Positions 3,674-59,889 of a stretch of 64,000 bases of DNA are shown piece by piece. Each line of letters opens with the position of its first letter. The stretch's first letter is position 1. The translations under genes and the position numbers were made by a program. The notes under the pieces were generated by a model. The model was not told the DNA's origin. It did not search any database and saw nothing but the letters and a program-made list of their open reading frames with translations. This stretch comes from a candidate division BRC1 bacterium HGW-BRC1-1 (GTDB lineage: Bacteria; Sumerlaeota; Sumerlaeia; Sumerlaeales; Sumerlaeaceae). The stretch covers positions 62,001 to 126,000 of the forward strand of contig PHCB01000002.1 of the NCBI GenBank assembly GCA_002842095.1, given 5' to 3'.

Positions 3674-4384
3674 TTACTGCTTGACGCGGTAGACGTCGCC
3701 CTGGCTGACAGTGCCGTTGGTCGAGTCATAAGTGAATGCGCCGCCGCCACCTGCAGCAGGTGCGCCTGCGAGCAGTTGCTGGCTCGGCTGCGACACGAAC
3801 GTGCTGTAGATGGTCTCAACCGCGGGTACACCGGTGCCACCGAGATCGCCACCAGTTGCCTGATCGGTGTCGGGTCCCGGGCTCCAGATGATCCAGCCCT
3901 GAGGATTCGCGAAGTAATAGAACGTCGCGCCTCTGGCGTCCATGAACGGATCCGAGAACAAGCTCGTCAGATAGCTGACGGGCGTGGTCAACGTGTGACC
4001 CCTCATGCTCGTACTCGCCGGATTGTGCATGGCGAACGTGTACTGTTTTGCCAGTTCCGCGTTTGGCGTTCCGGCAGGCCCGCCTACGATGGCGTTGTAG
4101 TTGTTCGCCTCAGCAGTCGGGTTGATAGCAACACCACCGTTTGGCGTAGCAGCGGTGGGGGTGCCAGCAATAGTGCCAGAACCTTGACGCGAGTGGGACG
4201 GATACAGGTTGTTGTCTACAAAATACGACTCCAAGCCTGTAGCATAGGTACGCTGGTCGTTCTTCACGCGGGACACCTTGGAGCGAATTTGCGCCTCAAG
4301 GAAGTTTGGCACCGCGATGGCGGCCAGGATCGCGATAATTGCAACCACGATCAGAAGCTCGATAAGGGTAAAACCTTTTTTCAC
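3674..4384 (-). CDS. Type IV pilin / type II secretion pseudopilin-like protein
   Basis: A 236-residue protein with a class III signal: a short basic leader VKKG, then FTLIELLIVVAIIAILAA with Glu at mature position 5, the site cut and methylated by a prepilin peptidase. The motif PNFLEAQIRSKVSRVKND and a YFVDNNLYP segment follow; such pseudopilins are abundant in several uncultured planctomycete-related phyla. The rest is Gly/Ala/Thr-rich with no cysteines. I chose GTG at 4384 because AAGGAGG lies 8 bases upstream and it leaves the normal 4-residue leader; a longer frame exists but would add 24 hydrophilic residues. No pilus assembly genes are nearby. The gene is monocistronic, closed by a strong terminator. 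It may be a structural pilin or a minor pseudopilin. Confidence 0.9.
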   Translation of the reverse strand: MKKGFTLIELLIVVAIIAILAAIAVPNFLEAQIRSKVSRVKNDQRTYATGLESYFVDNNLYPSHSRQGSGTIAGTPTAATPNGGVAINPTAEANNYNAIVGGPAGTPNAELAKQYTFAMHNPASTSMRGHTLTTPVSYLTSLFSDPFMDARGATFYYFANPQGWIIWSPGPDTDQATGGDLGGTGVPAVETIYSTFVSQPSQQLLAGAPAAGGGGAFTYDSTNGTVSQGDVYRVKQ

Positions 4385-4496
4385 AGAAAACCCCTCCTTC
4401 CAATGGAAGTGGATAGAATAATGACGCCCGCAGGTTTCCCTGCGTTTGTTATGCATACAGGTATGGACCCTAAGGCGGTGGTGTCAACACTAAAAA

Positions 4497-51760: not shown

Positions 51761-54700
51761 TTAAAGGCGATTCACCATTTCGAGGAATGTTTTCAAAATA
51801 ATGTGTGTTTCCTGTCCGCCACGCAAGACACTATGCTCCACATCGCTCAAGGCCCGGTCGATCATATGGATCGAAAGCAGATTTTCCACCTCCACAGATG
51901 ATTCCGGGAGCATTTCGCGAATGCCATCCACCGCCAGATAGCCAGACCACAGCGGTTGGGTGAGGGTGGCGGTCCAGGCGCGGGCCACGGGTTCCAGATG
52001 GTCGGCCTTTTCCCTGCGGGTGAAACCCTGCCCTTCGCGCTGCAACATGGCCCGGCTGGCCTGAAGCCGCAGCGACCAAAGCATCGAGGCCACATCGCGC
52101 AGGGGGCTGCGTTTGATGCGCCGCTCACTGAGGGGGGCAGCCGTATCGCCCTCAAAATCGATGAAGGCGAAACTGTTACCGGTGAAGAGAACCTGTGCGA
52201 GATGGAGATCCCCATGCACGCGGATACGCAGGCCGCGCAACCGTGGTGCAGTGGCGGTTTTAAACAGGTCATCGATGTGCAATCGCGCCTGAGTGAAATC
52301 CGTCAGCAGATCGCGCATGGGTTGATCATCGGGCAGGGACCGAATGCGTAGCAGTTTCAACGTGTTGCCCACGCGATTGCGCATGCTTTGATAAAGTCCG
52401 CGCTGATATAACAGCGAGAACGCTTCAGCGGAAAGACTGTTATCGTTGGTCGGAAGGGCGGCTAATCTGAGATGCAATTCTGCAAGTCGCTGCCCAAGCA
52501 GTGACACGGGTTCCAGCATCGGGCGGAACATGTCGTGAAAGGTCGGGGCCCACTGCGGCAGCACATTAATACCGCAACAAGCACCGGTTGTCGGTTTCAC
52601 CTTCACGACCGGTCCGGTGGCCGCTTCTGCCTGTTCCAGCACACGCTCGAGGTGATCCAGCAGCCAGCGGTCGGCGGTGCCCTGATTGGGCAGATACTCC
52701 TGCAGGAGAGCAACCGTTTCGGGCAGGTCGCCATCGGTCCCGTGATATTCCGCCCATCCGAGAAGCGACGGCAGCAGATGGTTATCGCCATTTTTGGGCG
52801 CGAGGGCAGTGCCTATTTCCACATCCGGGTGGGGGCCGGGCTGGGGCCGGGTGATAACCTTCACCACGCGGTTGCGCATGTGGGTGGCAATGAGATTGCC
52901 CTGTTCGGTGCGGATCGCCTGATAGTCATCCACATGGCCTTCCGGGGTGCCGTTGCGCATGGAGACCGTTCGCTTGATGACAAGCTTGCCGTGGGCGCCT
53001 TTCAGAACTTTTCCAGTGGTTAGGACGGTGTGAAGGATTCGGGCAAATGAGCTGTCCTGCGAGGCGTCTGACACGGCGAACATTTCCCCCGTGCGTTCGT
53101 TGCGCAGGTGTAGCACATCGCCCGGGACGCGGCGACCCGATGTCGTTTGCCCGAGAGGGCGAACCTTCACCGGCAACATCAGGTTGTTGCGTCGCATGGA
53201 CCCACCCGGCGCGGAAAGACATGCCAGGAAAAGTGCGGGACGAACCCGGCTGTTGAGGCGGATGGCATCGGTCAGTCGAATGTTGTGCAGATCCAACCGC
53301 ATTGGCTTCAGCCAGTCGAGCGACGCGCAATGGCGAACGAGGCAGCCATTCATTTCATCGCTGGGTGTGCCCCGAAGAAGGTCGTCCACGCTGCCCGAAT
53401 ATTCCACCACGCACACAGGTTCCGTGTCGCCGGATATACCCAACGGTGCTGTTTCCGATTTCTCCTCCAGAGAGAACCAGAGGAAACTGTGGGGTCCCAT
53501 CGTAAGGCCGTAATGGCCATGCTGCACACGGGGGAAGTCGCTCTGACTGAACAGTTCCACGGGTACATATCCCTGAAACGCTGTCAGGTCCAACTCCACA
53601 TGCTGCGCGTATCGCGAGAGATTGCAAACGCAGAGGATGGACTTGCCAGCGTGGGTGCGGATGAAGGCAATGATGCGGTAATTTTCGCAGTCCAGCATCT
53701 GCAAATCGCCCCGCCCAAAAGCCGGGTGACGTTTGCGAAGAGCAATAATGCGCCGGTGCCACCAGAGCAACGAACTCGGGTTGCCAAGTTGGGTCTCCAC
53801 ATTCACTGCTTCGTAGTGATATTCCGGATCAATGATGATGGGCAGATAAAGTCTTTGGGGATTTGACCGGGAGAAACCTGCGTTGCGGTCGGCGCTCCAC
53901 TGCATGGGTGTGCGAACGCCGTTGCGGTCGCCGAGATAGATGTTGTCGCCCATGCCGATTTCGTCGCCGTAGTACAGCACCGGTGTGCCGGGCAGCGAGA
54001 ACAACAACGCTGTCATCAGTTCAATCTTGCGTCGGTTGTTACCCAGCAGGGGAGCGAGGCGCCGCCGGATGCCGAGGTTGATGCGCGCGCGGGTGTCGCG
54101 GGCATAGCTGCGCTGCATGTAGTCGCGCTCTTCGTCCGTCACCATTTCCAGTGTGAGTTCGTCGTGGTTGCGCAGAAACAACGCCCACTGGGAAGCCGGC
54201 GGAATGGGCGGTGTCTGCCGGAGGATGTCCACCACCGGGAAGCGGTCTTCCATCTCCACAGCCATGAAAAGCCGTGGCATAATGGGGAAGTGGAACGCCA
54301 TGTGGCATTCATCACCCTTCTCACCGAAATACTGCACTGCATCTTCCGGCCACTGGTTTGCCTCGGCGAGCAACATGCGTGCGCTGTAACGCTTGTCGAT
54401 ATGCGCGCGGAGTTTCTTCAGGAAGGTGTGAGTCTCGGGGAGATTCTCACAGTTGGTATTCTCGCGCTCGAAAAGATAGGGCACCGCATCCAGGCGAATG
54501 CCGTCCACGCCCATTTGCATCCAGTAGTCGAGCACGCGCAGCATCTCGGTCTGAACCTTCGGGTTGTCGAAGTTCAAATCTGGCTGGTGCGAGTAGAAGC
54601 GGTGCCAGAAGTAGGCATCGGCCACAGAATCCCACGACCAGTTGGACTTTTCGAAATCCTGAAAAATAATGCGAGCGTCGGGATAACGCTCGTGGGTCTT

Positions 54701-55132
54701 GCTCCACACGTAAAAGTCGCGCTCGGGAGACCCGACCGGTGCCTTACGCGCGCGCTGAAACCAGGGATGCTGGTCGGAGGTGTGGTTCAGCACCAACTCT
54801 GTAATGACGCGAATGTCGCGCTCGTGAGCCGCTCGCAGGAACTCGCGGAAGTCGGCCATGGTTCCATAGTTCGGATGGATTTCGCGATAGTCGGCAATGT
54901 CGTAGCCATCGTCGCGCAGTGGGGAGGGATAGAAGGGGAGTAACCAGAGGGCGTTCACCCCGAGGTCCTGCAGGTAATCGAGCTTGTAAGTCAGGCCGCG
55001 AAAGTCGCCGGCCCCGTCGCCGCTGCTGTCAGCAAATGCCCGCACATGGACTTCATAAATGATGGCATCTTTGTACCATGTTGCATCATCTGATGCAGGT
55101 GTTATAAGCGCGCGCGATGGGTTCTTCTGCAT
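51761..55132 (-). CDS. treS: Trehalose synthase - maltokinase fusion (TreS-Mak)
   Basis: A 1123-residue bifunctional enzyme. Residues 15-560 form a GH13 trehalose synthase: [20 protein letters not shown], the nucleophile Asp215 in [13 protein letters not shown], acid Glu in [13 protein letters not shown], and RNHDELTLE. The C-terminal third is a maltokinase with the kinase-like [11 protein letters not shown] (His973-Asp975) and FIDFEGD. TreS interconverts maltose and trehalose; Mak makes maltose-1-phosphate, the substrate of GlgE, which is not in the window. The ATG at 55132 is preferred to a TTG nine codons upstream. First gene of the operon with the sugar importer, 49 bases before it. Confidence 0.94.
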
Positions 55133-55507
55133 GTTACCGCCTGTTTCTGTAGGTTGCAATATGACTCAATGATGTCCGGCGGAAGACATCCCGCAGGTAA
55201 CGGCGGGCGTAACCGCGCTTGGTAATCGGACTACATCGCCGCATGATTGGTTCCAACCGGTTGTGCTGTACTACCCTCTGGATATAACGAGTCTATTCTT
55301 TAATTTTATATTCGGATGCGATCGGAGGTTATTATTGGCGGGGCTTTTCTGGATGGTCTCCATCATCGCAACCCAGGGGACTAAGTCTATATCTGATGTT
55401 CTCGAAGGAACCTCTTGAATGACTGGCGTTGAAATTGCTACCGATTGACAGAATAGTTGCCCCCGAGGCTGTTTCGGGACAATCCAACACAATCGGTTCT
55501 TTCAACC
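55133..55507. other. 375-base intergenic region with stacked hairpins, no gene seen
   Basis: The gap lies between the divergent treS and ABC-export genes. GATGTC/GACATC (55171-55190) frames an 8-nt loop, CCCGC/GCGGG follows at once, and AACCGGTT palindromes lie near 55256. The remainder, about 55265-55440, is AT-richer than the genes and has TTGACA-like and TATATT-like boxes I cannot pair into a convincing promoter. Short frames on the minus strand have no homology or ribosome binding site. It may hold promoters and 5' leaders for both operons. Confidence 0.5.
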
Positions 55508-56518
55508 ATGATCGTAATTGAGACAAAACGACTCACCAAAGTTTACACCCACGACTTCATCGACGTCGAGCATGGGCGCTTGCGCTTCAACTTCATGAGA
55601 AAAACGGTGGCACTCGACAGCCTTGACCTGGAAGTCCGCGAGGGAGAAATCTTCGGACTCCTTGGGCCCAACGGCGCAGGCAAGTCCACCACCATCAAAA
55701 TATTGATGGGCATCCTCTTCCCCTCCAGCGGTTCGGCCAGCATTATGGGCAAGCCCCTGGGAGACAAGAGCGTAAAGGCGAGCATTGGCTTTCTGCCCGA
55801 GAATGCAAACTTCTACGACTACCTCAAGGGCGAGGAGTTCCTTGATTATTACGGGACCCTGTACGGACTGGGTAAGGCCGCCCGGCGCAAGCGGATCGAC
55901 GAGTTGTTCGAACTGGTCTCGCTGCCGCCCCACGCGCCCAACCTTCCGCTCAAGGGCTACTCGAAGGGAATGCTTCAGCGCATCGGCGTGGCTCAGGCCC
56001 TGCTGAATGATCCTCAGGTCGTGGTGCTGGACGAGCCCCAATCGGGCCTCGATCCACTGGGGCGCAAAGAGATCCGCGACATCATACTTAAGCTGAAAGA
56101 AAACGGCAAGACGGTCTTCTTCTCCTCGCACATCCTCAGCGATGCGGAGTTGATCTGCGACCGGGTGGCCATCCTCAACCGTGGGAAGCTATCCACCATG
56201 GGCGACCTGGACACTCTCCTCAGTTCCACCATTAAGGATTGGGAAGTGATCGTGTCCGGCATGAGCGCAGAATCGGTGGCCGAGCTTCGTCCCCATGCCA
56301 TCAAGTTCCTTGAACGCGAGCGTGACGTGCTTTTCGTGTTCGACAAGGAAGAGCCGGTGCGCGACACACTGCGACGCGTCGTCGAACAGAACGCCACCCT
56401 CGTTTCATTGTCGCCCCGTCGCGAAACCCTGGAGGAATATTTCATCCGGGAAGTTTCGAAAAAACCTGCGCAGGAAGCAAAGACCGACTCAAAATCCAGG
56501 AGCGCCGCGAATGTTTAA
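55508..56518 (+). CDS. ABC transporter ATP-binding protein (ABC-2 export type)
   Basis: A 336-residue ATPase. Walker A is LGPNGAGKSTTIKILMGILF, signature is LKGYSKGMLQRIGVAQALL, Walker B is VVVLDEPQSGLDPLGRKEI and the switch His is in FSSHILSD. The layout matches CcmA/DrrA-type ATPases of ABC-2 exporters. An unusual insert of about 20 residues after the first strand (HDFIDVEHGRLRFNFMRKTV) is not in standard members and could contact the substrate or permease. The C-terminal 100 residues form the accessory regulatory domain. It overlaps the permease gene by eight bases. Confidence 0.93.
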   Translation: MIVIETKRLTKVYTHDFIDVEHGRLRFNFMRKTVALDSLDLEVREGEIFGLLGPNGAGKSTTIKILMGILFPSSGSASIMGKPLGDKSVKASIGFLPENANFYDYLKGEEFLDYYGTLYGLGKAARRKRIDELFELVSLPPHAPNLPLKGYSKGMLQRIGVAQALLNDPQVVVLDEPQSGLDPLGRKEIRDIILKLKENGKTVFFSSHILSDAELICDRVAILNRGKLSTMGDLDTLLSSTIKDWEVIVSGMSAESVAELRPHAIKFLERERDVLFVFDKEEPVRDTLRRVVEQNATLVSLSPRRETLEEYFIREVSKKPAQEAKTDSKSRSAANV

Positions 56519-57497
56519 GGTCCTCGCAATCTCTCTCAACACGTTCAAGGAGGCGGTCCGCAACAAGGTTCTCTACTTCCTACTGATCTTCGCCATCCTC
56601 ATCATTGTCTTTTCGAGTTTCATCAGCGACCTGTCCATTGCGGCTCCCGACCGATTGATCAAGGATCTCGGTCTCGCCTCCATCGACTTTTTCGGCTTCC
56701 TCATTGCTGTCTTTGTGGGCGTTTATCTCGTCTATAACGAACTCGATAAGAAGACGATTTATACGATCGTTTCCAAACCCATCGATCGCTATCAGTTCAT
56801 CCTCGGCAAGTACTTCGGACTGCTCATCACGATCCTGGTCAATATGGTCATCATGAGCATCTTTCTTTTCGCCGTGCTCTACTGGCGCGAAACCTTCGCC
56901 AGCGACAAGCTGAGCAACCTCCTCTATCCGGAAGTTTCGTCCGGAAAGCGCGAGGCCATCGCCAATCTCCAACTTCATTATTATTGGTTCCATGTTCAGA
57001 CGTTCTTCATCGCCATTGGCAAAGCGGTGGCCACGCTGTTTGGTTACTCCGAGGCGGTGACAGCGGGCCTGCTGAGGGTTATTGCTTTCAGTGCGCTCGG
57101 GCTTTCCATCATCACGGCCTTCGCCATCTTCTACTCGACCTTCTCCACTCCCACACTCAGCGCAGTGTTCACCTCGCTGACCTTTGTCATCGGTAGCCTG
57201 TCGGAAGACATCGTGCGCTATGCCGAGAAGCTCGCCGAAAAGGCGGGCGGCCTGGCCGCTCTGGCCGGGGCTGATGTGTTGAAATATAACTTCGCCACCT
57301 GGGCCGTGCAAATCGTGCCCAATCTGGCCTACTTCGACAAGCGTGCCGAGGCGATCCACGGTCCCGCTGCCATGGAAGTGCCGGCCATACTCGGTCCCAC
57401 CCTCAGCGATCCCTGGGCCGTGGCCTACGGACTGCTCTATACGGCCGGCATTTTGTGCCTCGCCTCGCTCATATTCAATCGCCGGAATTTCAAGTAG
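56511..57497 (+). CDS. ABC-2 type permease
   Basis: A 328-residue inner-membrane protein with about six hydrophobic segments, beginning FKVLAISLNTFKEAVRNKVL, the usual opening of ABC-2/NatB-type permeases. VSKPIDRYQFILGKYFGLLI is the coupling loop pattern. AGGAG lies eight bases before ATG 56511, and the gene begins inside the ATPase gene, so they form one complex. Substrate unknown. The next gene starts six bases later, making a three-gene operon. Confidence 0.92.
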   Translation: MFKVLAISLNTFKEAVRNKVLYFLLIFAILIIVFSSFISDLSIAAPDRLIKDLGLASIDFFGFLIAVFVGVYLVYNELDKKTIYTIVSKPIDRYQFILGKYFGLLITILVNMVIMSIFLFAVLYWRETFASDKLSNLLYPEVSSGKREAIANLQLHYYWFHVQTFFIAIGKAVATLFGYSEAVTAGLLRVIAFSALGLSIITAFAIFYSTFSTPTLSAVFTSLTFVIGSLSEDIVRYAEKLAEKAGGLAALAGADVLKYNFATWAVQIVPNLAYFDKRAEAIHGPAAMEVPAILGPTLSDPWAVAYGLLYTAGILCLASLIFNRRNFK

Positions 57498-57503
57498 GCC
57501 GCC

Positions 57504-58805
57504 ATGAAACGCGGATTAATCACCAACATCATTCTCTTCCTGCTCTTTGCAGCGTTCTTCACCCCCGCAGTGCTCATCCAGCGGCGGGGGCTGGAAAACG
57601 TGCTGAAGAACCCACCCTTTCAGGAAACCTGGCTGCTCTCCAGCCGCAGTGGTCCGATGCTGCGCCTCATGTCGCTGCGTTACGATATGGTGGCAGCGGA
57701 CTTCCTCTGGTTGCGCGCCATCCAGAGCTTCGGTGGACGCGGCATGACGAACCGCGACTGGAAGCCGGTCTATAACATGTTCGACACGATCACCGAACTG
57801 GACCCGTATTTCGAGCAGGCCTATACGTTCGGCAACCTGGTCATCGGTGACGAAGGCGGTCAACAGACCGAGGGGCTGAAACTTCTCCGCAAGGGGATGT
57901 TCAATCTCATCCGCCAGTACCGCATCCCCTTCGAGGGAATGTATGTGGCGCAATGGTCACTGCGCAATCTCGACATGGCCCGCTGGTTCGGCCGCATGAC
58001 CGTCAAGCGTCCCGACATGCCCGATTGGGTGCCACGGGTGGTGGCTTATCTGGAAGTGCAAGCCGGCGAGTTTTTTATCGGTTATCGCCAATTCTTGTCC
58101 AACCTATTGCAAGCCATAGACGCCGAGGATGTGGCTCTCCAGGGAATCGCGCTGAACAAAGTGCGCGAGACCATCGACAAGTTGAACATGTTCCACCTCA
58201 TGCAGGCTTATGACGAATACACCACCGCCACGGGCGCGCCGCCGGGTCGCATCGAAGATCTGGCCGGGATGCCGGCGTTGCAAAACGTGGAAATGCCGCG
58301 CATGAGCCAGGTCATGGCGTTGATTCAAAAATACGCCCGGGCTCAGGGGAAGCAGGGTGTTTATGAGGGATGGAAAGATGGCATCGCGATGCCAACACCA
58401 GACCAGATTGCCGCCGTGGAACTGGTAACCACCGCCACCGAAGGGCAGACAAGAATGCTTCCCCTCGAGGGCGTGATCTTCCAGCAATCTCTGGATAAAA
58501 GAACCGGTATTCCAGAGGAACCCCACGGTACCCGCTACGTGCTTAATCTCTCGAAGATCGGATATCCCTGGGTGCAAAAGGATGAACTGATCTTGTCCGC
58601 CGCTAAATTGCAGGAGGATCTGGCTGGTTTACTGAAAGGTGTAAGGGATGCCATTGCCGAGCGAAAGAAAGAACTCGGACGCAACCCCAGGGATCTTCAT
58701 GAAGTGTTTTACACCGACTTCAACACCACGGAACCCTTTGGTGGGAAGTTCAACTATGATCCCACAACCGGCAACTTCACCAGCAGTACCTTCCCCAAGC
58801 TGTAG
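57504..58805 (+). CDS. Anchored helical-repeat-like protein, partner of the ABC-2 exporter (unknown)
   Basis: A 433-residue protein with one N-terminal membrane segment (LITNIILFLLFAAFFTPAVL) and a mostly helical periplasmic body. The motif RYDMVAADFLWLRAIQSFGG near residue 60, then ITELDPYFEQAYTFGNLVIG, resembles an uncharacterised family of anchored TPR-like proteins carrying a DxLWxRxIQYFG motif (from memory). No cysteines and no obvious catalytic residues. Tight spacing with the ATPase and permease implies that the three work together, perhaps as an exporter with a periplasmic accessory. The operon ends in a strong terminator. Function not known. Confidence 0.8.
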   Translation: MKRGLITNIILFLLFAAFFTPAVLIQRRGLENVLKNPPFQETWLLSSRSGPMLRLMSLRYDMVAADFLWLRAIQSFGGRGMTNRDWKPVYNMFDTITELDPYFEQAYTFGNLVIGDEGGQQTEGLKLLRKGMFNLIRQYRIPFEGMYVAQWSLRNLDMARWFGRMTVKRPDMPDWVPRVVAYLEVQAGEFFIGYRQFLSNLLQAIDAEDVALQGIALNKVRETIDKLNMFHLMQAYDEYTTATGAPPGRIEDLAGMPALQNVEMPRMSQVMALIQKYARAQGKQGVYEGWKDGIAMPTPDQIAAVELVTTATEGQTRMLPLEGVIFQQSLDKRTGIPEEPHGTRYVLNLSKIGYPWVQKDELILSAAKLQEDLAGLLKGVRDAIAERKKELGRNPRDLHEVFYTDFNTTEPFGGKFNYDPTTGNFTSSTFPKL

Positions 58806-58859: not shown

Positions 58860-58900
58860 GGTCGCCGATGTGTGCCTTGTTCACATCGGCGACCATCTTT
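58860..58900 (+). terminator. Rho-independent terminator of the ABC-2 operon
   Basis: A perfect 13-bp stem GGTCGCCGATGTG / CACATCGGCGACC with a 9-nt loop is followed by ATCTTTTT. It lies 55 bases past the last gene and 33 before the next start. Confidence 0.93.
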
Positions 58901-58932: not shown

Positions 58933-59889
58933 ATGACGCCCACCCCCGCTGTTGAAATCCGCCTGTTCCGTGGCAAGGATGCCGAGCCTCTGCTCGCCCT
59001 GTGGGATCGCGCACTGCCGCTCGATGGCATTACCCGTGATCTGCTGGAACGGCGCATCCTGCTGGACCTGAGCTTCGAACCGCAAAGCCTCATTGTGGCC
59101 GAGGCGGGCGGTGCGCTGGTGGGTTTCATCACGATGTTCGTGCTTCACAAACCCATTGAAAAGGTCGGACTGCGCGAAGACACGGGGTTCATCACGGCCA
59201 TGGGTGTTGACCCTGACCGGCGCGGGGAGGGAATCGGCTCGGCGTTGCTGGCGTCAGCGGAAACATTCTTTCGCGAGCGTGATCGCAAGATAATCACGAT
59301 CGCCCCTTACACGCCCAATTATTTTGTCCCCGGGGTGGACAAAGACAATTACGCCGACGGTGTCGCCTTCCTGCAGAGTCACGGTTTCGAGGAATACACC
59401 GAGGGTTTGGGGGCTGACGCAAATATTGCGACCTTCACCCTCGACGGGAAGGTGCTGACGAAAGAGAAACAACTGGCGGGGGAGGGAATCGAAATCCGCC
59501 ATTATCGCCGCGACGACCTTCCGGAGTTCCTTCAATTTCTCCGCGATCTGATGCCCGGCCCGTGGGTGGAGGATGCGCGGCGCAATCTCATCGATCTGAC
59601 CCATGGACGGTTTCATGAGGATGCCATCTGGTTGGCTCTGGATGAAGGCCGGATCATTGGTTACTGTCAGCATGAGTCCGATCACTTCGGGCCCTTCGGA
59701 GTGTCGGATGACTACCAGGGTCGGGGTATTGGCAGCGTGTTGCTGGCGCGCACCATGTACCAGATGCGCCTGCGCGGCTACCATTGCGCGTGGGTTTTGT
59801 GGACCGGCGAGCGGGCCCTTCAGGGTGTATACGGACGCCTCGGCTTCAAGCTCACCCGCCGTTATGCCATTATGAAAAAGACTCTCTGA
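58933..59889 (+). CDS. Tandem GNAT-domain acetyltransferase (paralogue B)
   Basis: A 318-residue protein with two GNAT domains. Domain one has VDPDRRGEGIGSALLASAE and ends with NYFVPGVDKDNYADGVAFLQ; domain two has VSDDYQGRGIGSVLLARTMY and a final YGRLGFKLTRRYAIMKK. The same order and the shared NYF-x-PGVD mark it as a paralogue of the protein at 25490-26398, though the two have diverged widely. Both CoA loops keep the R/Q-x-x-G-x-G pattern, so both domains may bind acetyl-CoA. AGGAGA lies ten bases before the ATG. It follows a strong terminator, so it is separately transcribed. Substrate unknown. Confidence 0.87.
   Translation: MTPTPAVEIRLFRGKDAEPLLALWDRALPLDGITRDLLERRILLDLSFEPQSLIVAEAGGALVGFITMFVLHKPIEKVGLREDTGFITAMGVDPDRRGEGIGSALLASAETFFRERDRKIITIAPYTPNYFVPGVDKDNYADGVAFLQSHGFEEYTEGLGADANIATFTLDGKVLTKEKQLAGEGIEIRHYRRDDLPEFLQFLRDLMPGPWVEDARRNLIDLTHGRFHEDAIWLALDEGRIIGYCQHESDHFGPFGVSDDYQGRGIGSVLLARTMYQMRLRGYHCAWVLWTGERALQGVYGRLGFKLTRRYAIMKKTL

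Follow-up and report, generated by a model that had tools for sequence, protein, structure and literature searches.

The window analyzed here is a 64,000-nucleotide stretch of contig PHCB01000002.1 (positions 62,001 to 126,000) from the Sumerlaeota bacterium HGW-BRC1-1, and our subject is a unit of three adjacent genes on its plus strand, which encode an ATP-binding cassette (ABC) transporter of the ABC-2 type and a membrane-anchored partner. The first gene, P0001 (55508–56518), encodes an ABC ATPase of 336 residues (Pfam ABC_tran, 1.7e-25). Its start is the ATG at 55508, which is backed by homologues; the mechanical open reading frame (ORF) begins at a TTG at 55457. The second, P0002 (56511–57497), encodes a permease of 328 residues that matched Pfam ABC2_membrane_4 above the cut-off and contains five strong hydrophobic segments on the Kyte-Doolittle scale. 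The third, P0003 (57504–58805), encodes a protein of 433 residues. As a previous note on this DNA had described, the ATPase and permease genes overlap by 8 bases (56511–56518), a gap of 6 bases precedes the third gene, and an intrinsic terminator hairpin (58860–58894, plus strand) with a 13-bp stem closes the unit. The arms of the stem, 58860–58872 and 58882–58894, are followed by a T run (ATCTTTTT). The hairpin has a calculated stability of -27.2 kcal/mol (z -5.98), and none of 200 shuffles was equally stable. It was absent from a simple terminator scan because its loop of 9 exceeds the limit of 8 set there.

The note had also pointed to an N-terminal anchor and a conserved AADFLWLRAIQ-type motif in the third product and to an extra insert in the ATPase, and all three were found. 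The anchor is a hydrophobic segment at residues 5–23 (57516–57572), and the motif occupies residues 64–74. The insert consists of 11 residues (18–28; 55559–55591). In an alignment of 26 ATPases, it was present in all 9 Sumerlaeota rows, eight of them in addition to that of the window, and in none of the 16 rows from PilH loci elsewhere or the row of one other ABC ATPase.

Homology to PilH, PilI, and PilG

Homologues of the 433-residue protein were detected in 36/39 genomes of the class and in the only other genome of the phylum, as well as in 4/21 genomes drawn from elsewhere in the domain. In two other phyla, they were present in 30/30 and 7/9 genomes. The host genome (3.77 Mb) was matched once, and no match was obtained in the viral contigs or plasmids scanned. 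A P0002-like permease gene lay beside the homologue at 41/41 loci and a P0001-like ATPase gene at 36/41, the five loci without an ATPase (L035, L038, L051, L055, and L059) each being ended by a contig edge. These counts agree with the proposal that the unit is a complete ABC-2 transporter with a dedicated anchored partner. When 16 Sumerlaeota loci were compared, with the window and L043 each as reference, matches to all three genes were seen in 15/15 of the others, and the real neighbors of the unit, antisense shadow frames aside, matched in at most 2 of these 15.

We further surveyed 80 named loci, one of which (L176) was dropped before counting as it had no homologous ORF above the threshold. 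In 71 of the remaining 79, the homologue had one or both ABC genes near it on its own strand, with midpoints no more than 3.5 kb apart. The 79 loci include several near relatives and are not independent; the counts therefore carry no probability. Homologues thus mostly adjoin ABC-2 genes and are not, as the note had allowed they might be, usually found away from them. Among the eight loci without an ABC gene, three (L101, L145, and L172) lie at contig ends, and the others are L122, L144, L159, L177, and L178. At L144 (8183–9771) and L122 (5636–9858), a PilG homologue lies close to type IV pilin genes and has no ABC genes nearby; PilG may thus be linked to the pilin, not to the transporter. The proteins at L177 (429–1220) and L178 (3476–4345) are cyanobacterial and PilG-like (E 8e-13 and 9e-11), with no ABC or pilin genes nearby in the stretch covered, and L177 has only 428 bases upstream of the homologue.

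The three proteins were compared with those of the myxobacterial pil locus. PilH and P0001 were reciprocal best hits: when Myxococcus PilH was searched against the Sumerlaeota genome, the window ATPase was the best of 50 places (221 versus 180 bits), and when the window ATPase was searched against the Myxococcus genome, the best of 71 places lay inside PilH of L170 (220 versus 158 bits). Myxococcus PilI, searched in this one direction only, found the window permease as the best of 3 places in the Sumerlaeota genome (61 versus 30 bits). Profiles of 10 Sumerlaeota and 13 Myxococcota PilG proteins matched over 215 columns at 99.7% in hhalign (E 1.4e-25). The homology of all three proteins was tested on Myxococcus sp. 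CA023 and other Myxococcota. In a midpoint-rooted FastTree phylogeny of 41 ATPases (27 from these loci and 14 high-scoring paralogues from both genomes), the window ATPase and all PilH-locus ATPases formed one clade (support 0.874) that excluded the 14 paralogues; several branches within the clade were weakly supported. These results show the three products to be homologous to PilH, PilI, and PilG of that locus and make the identity of the unit nearly certain.

Gene order at the reference loci was examined as well. In Myxococcus sp. CA023 (L170), we take the order, from sequence motifs, to be pilB, pilT, pilC, pilS, pilR, pilA, the homologue, ATPase, permease, pilD, histidine kinase, NtrC, pilM, and pilN. 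M. vastator (L164) and Pyxidicoccus fallax (L167) have a kinase, NtrC, pilin, homologue, ATPase, and permease in the same order as in L170. In M. xanthus, according to one report (PMC3546991), MXAN_5783–5780 encode PilA, PilG, PilH, and PilI in one operon, and passages there and in PMC3724824 credit PilGHI to a study of M. xanthus by Wu et al. in 1998. An excerpt of PMC3924187 gives a transporter classification entry for PilGHI, 3.A.1.144.5, with PilG as the extracytoplasmic receptor. The Sumerlaeota unit resembles the M. xanthus set (MXAN_5782–5780) in its three homologous, adjacent genes and in a host with type IV pilus genes. It differs in its distance from pilA, in the 11-residue ATPase insert, and in its gene order, H-I-G as against G-H-I; in the other phyla, H-I-G was likewise the most frequent arrangement (33/69). 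PilGHI sets were found in records named Acidobacteria, Nitrospirae, Dadabacteria, Eisenbacteria, WOR-3, Myxococcota, and Sumerlaeota.

As a system, the unit is not new; it is a distant copy of a known, poorly understood transporter set. The suggestion of the earlier note that it might be an undescribed system did not hold, and the candidate of an undescribed exporter was dropped in view of the homology to PilG, PilH, and PilI. The main text of a Sumerlaeota paper does not name PilGHI, and the one word beginning with pil- in it is pilus.

Domain architecture of PilG

An AlphaFold2 model of PilG built with 40 sequences (mean predicted local distance difference test score, pLDDT, 91.5) comprises an anchor helix (residues 5–35), an all-helical solenoid, and a mixed C-terminal part. 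Residues ~55–195 (57666–58088, plus strand) aligned with tetratricopeptide repeat (TPR) proteins at VIA-align Z scores of 12.7–14.0, values that helical repeats easily reach with this tool. Foldseek with the whole model placed TPR proteins at the top, all matches having E values above 0.001, and profile searches with PilG retrieved TPR models and TPR structures. With the single sequence, no Pfam or NCBIfam hit was obtained, and a scan of PDB sequences gave one chance match (E 0.99). The claim that the third product has no known domain was thus borne out for single-sequence scans and contradicted by profiles. An enzyme function for P0003 was also considered and dropped. Within the TPR region, D66, W69, Q74, G77, and Y107 were invariant in an alignment of 40 sequences (A5), the first three of them inside the AADFLWLRAIQ motif. 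A more diverse alignment of 29 rows (A1) had no invariant columns, and Q74 and Y107 were kept in at least 90% of its rows. The TPR fold and a part in type IV pilus biogenesis are shared with the PilW-type pilus biogenesis factor, and PilW (2vq2) was among the Foldseek matches, weakly (E 9.9e-3) and amid generic TPR proteins. PilW-type factors are not known to have ABC partners.

The C-terminal half folded alone with a pLDDT of 90.0. Among 40 re-aligned chains, its best match was GspG, the major pseudopilin of type II secretion, from Vibrio vulnificus (3gn9; VIA-align Z 6.7, root-mean-square deviation 2.6, 69 residues), where a Z below 8 may reflect a common arrangement only; the match spans the whole of the second Sumerlaeota module (residues 365–433; 58596–58802), and the runner-up chain had a Z of 3.9. 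Foldseek with the C-terminal model gave no credible match, none having E ≤ 0.001, and Pfam T2SSG was not matched by ten C-terminal segments. Against a GspG profile built from 30 Sumerlaeota loci, the module as it occurs in single copy in PilG proteins outside Sumerlaeota matched at 95.2% (E 2.6e-8; 12 proteins) or, when 23 of 30 rows were picked by length, at 96.1% (E 3.7e-9). In 60 column shuffles of each, the match did not exceed 1.5%, and other type IV pilins matched the single-copy module at 1.1%. By group, the values were 94.2% for Acidobacteria (6 proteins), 89.0% for a mixed group (11), 70.6% for Nitrospirae (3), and 37.1% for Myxococcota (7). The two Sumerlaeota copies taken alone reached 29.8% (first) and 25.1% (second), and full-length profiles of Myxococcota and Sumerlaeota PilG 16.9% and 9.1%, respectively. 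With an initial GspG set of 9 proteins, at least one of them wrongly picked, the single-copy module had matched at 78.4%, the first Sumerlaeota copy at 17.6%, the second at 0.8%, and Myxococcota PilG at full length at 1.9%. Since the GspG match differs among groups, the pseudopilin claim is uneven: the C-terminal module of PilG resembles GspG with moderate support that varies among lineages. The likeness concerns the globular part of GspG (PF08334) and was seen by profile at 95–96% in other phyla. Unlike GspG, PilG has no prepilin N-terminus (the N_methyl motif was not found in P0003 by Pfam), and its module is fused behind a TPR solenoid.

The single-copy module (12 proteins) matched two places in Sumerlaeota PilG in hhalign, one at residues ~212–260 (58137–58283; 96.9%) and one in the second module described above (97.3%), and the module is therefore probably doubled in Sumerlaeota. 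Compared directly, the two copies matched at 42% (E 2.6e-4). A single-sequence test for the doubling was negative: its score of 27 was reached by 83 of 300 shuffles. P337 and P340 were invariant in alignment A6, and the stretch P-x-x-P-x-G-x-x-Y at residues 337–345 would be the end of the first copy. In length, the Sumerlaeota PilG (433 residues, with a doubled module) contrasts with the ORF of M. vastator (334 residues). Taken together, the models and profiles make PilG an anchored TPR solenoid followed, with moderate support, by a C-terminal pseudopilin-like module. This architecture is the surprise of the analysis, one that is moderately and unevenly supported. No description of the architecture, of the doubling, or of the ATPase insert was found in the literature searched.

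T2SSG matches were also observed in frames of ~400–550 residues elsewhere (G019:C2:162712–162978 and similar places in G028, G030, G010, G013, and G038). They lack the first positions of the model and are perhaps pseudopilin domains in non-pilin proteins.

Link to type IV pili and possible function

Type IV pili are retractable hairs used for movement. We examined whether pilin genes accompany the unit at loci with more than 2.5 kb of sequence upstream of it (eligible loci). Outside Sumerlaeota, a type IV pilin gene was present on the same strand within 2.5 kb upstream in 30/47 eligible loci. By contrast, none was found on the opposite strand (0/47), and 2/55 loci had one downstream within the same distance. 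The upstream pilin ORFs, 45 in number, all matched Pfam N_methyl, and 8 of them matched Pilin_PilA. In Sumerlaeota, the units lie away from pilin genes, and the link to type IV pili therefore rests on homology there. PilM_2 and pilT_fam scored above the cut-off in 39/39 genomes of the class, searches that are unspecific in that they also did so in 9/14 and 5/14 control genomes, respectively. More specifically, PilM, PilO, and a secretin are encoded together in one operon of the host, where the two intervening frames gave no hit to Pfam; T2SSE was matched 17 times in this genome, 15 of them above the cut-off. Judged from genes alone, the host appears to carry a type IV pilus machine. The 15 T2SSE matches were located on contigs C1, C2, C3, C5, C8, C18, C23, C25, and C31. 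The window itself contains, ~51 kb from the unit, a gene for a prepilin-like protein (3674–4456, minus strand; N_methyl 1.5e-8).

Parts of the M. xanthus literature are consistent with such a link. M. xanthus requires PilGHI for its type IV pili. In passages of PMC3724824, PilG, PilH, and PilI are termed essential for pilin translocation, and the pilB-WA allele suppresses deletions of pilG, pilH, and pilI, as it does a deletion of pilA. An excerpt of PMC5544727 reports defects in social motility and exopolysaccharide upon deletion of pilGHI. A 2018 survey, in the part available (PMC6060248), lists homology hits to PilGHI in almost all bacteria studied.

Based on these results, we consider it very likely that the unit is a pilH-pilI-pilG operon encoding an ABC transporter accessory to the biogenesis of type IV pili. 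ATP-driven pilin handling at the inner membrane would be its most likely function, cargo and direction being inferred. Two PilH ATPases would power a PilI ABC-2 permease dimer. PilG would be held in the inner membrane by its anchor, face the periplasm, and recognize pilins through the TPR groove and the pseudopilin-like C-terminal module; with ATP hydrolysis, pilins (or minor pilins) might then be delivered, turned over, or released at the membrane for use by the assembly machine. The loci L144 and L122 fit PilG as the pilin-facing part. The cargo may be the pilin itself, as proposed for M. xanthus, or a factor involved in pilin maturation. A bolder form of the same idea, which we put forward as doubtful, is that PilG is a pilin mimic: its periplasmic TPR arm would end in one pseudopilin-like head, or two in Sumerlaeota, presenting or competing for pilins, and PilH-PilI would use ATP to load or extract pilins at the inner membrane. 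If true, this would be an unrecognized energized step in type IV pilus assembly in many phyla.

Several observations weigh against reading the unit as a pilus-related PilGHI operon. Pilins normally reach the membrane via Sec, and an ABC-2 exporter of pilins would therefore be mechanistically odd. No upstream pilin was detected in 17/47 eligible loci outside Sumerlaeota, including that of P. caerfyrddinensis (L175), and in Sumerlaeota a pilin was near the unit in 0/6 eligible loci upstream and 1/6 downstream. Five PilG homologues (L122, L144, L159, L177, and L178) have no nearby ABC gene. Identity to Myxococcus-type PilG is ~20%, the PilI best-hit test is one-way, and the low GspG values of the Myxococcota module and of the separate Sumerlaeota copies, like the unspecific PilM_2 and pilT_fam searches, point the same way. 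A pilI mutant, as reported in PMC8570273, was slower than the wild type on 0.4% agar only.

Other explanations were weighed against the same evidence. PilGHI might move a lipid, glycan, or small molecule required for pilus assembly, with PilG merely docking the transporter to pilins. ABC-2 permeases mostly carry lipids, glycans, and drugs, which counts in favor of such a cargo, and the 2018 survey notes a lack of experimental data for transport by PilGHI (PMC6060248); the linkage specifically to pilin genes and the pseudopilin-like module of PilG argue for the pilin instead, and we give the non-pilin cargo a modest chance. That the Sumerlaeota unit descends from PilGHI and now exports an unrelated substrate, such as a peptide, lipid, or glycan, would suit the missing upstream pilins as well as the insert and the doubled module, both seen in Sumerlaeota only. 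However, the unit occurs in 36/39 genomes of a class in which type IV pilus genes occur in 39/39, the three-gene block is intact, and the conserved PilG positions are retained, so that such a change of substrate appears unlikely. It is highly improbable that the unit is an ordinary DrrA- or GldA-like exporter of drugs or antibiotics next to an unrelated third gene. The DrrA and GldA models do match the window ATPase, which belongs to the same superfamily, but far below the curated cut-offs (225 against 312.45 bits and 193.5 against 402.6 bits); moreover, the ATPase groups with PilH in the tree, and the third gene is co-conserved.

The present survey connects PilGHI to pilin genes across many phyla. 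With a domain architecture of TPR plus pseudopilin-like module assigned to PilG, the question of cargo becomes a test of pilin binding, and the pilus-subunit-like part of the third protein may hint at how PilGHI works.

Surroundings of the unit in the window

Directly upstream of the unit and divergent from it lies an ORF of 1132 residues (51761–55159, minus strand), which we take to resemble a fused trehalose synthase and maltokinase. Past the terminator is a presumably acetyltransferase-like ORF (58933–59889, plus strand), which was matched at two more of the Sumerlaeota loci with the unit (L045 and L046).

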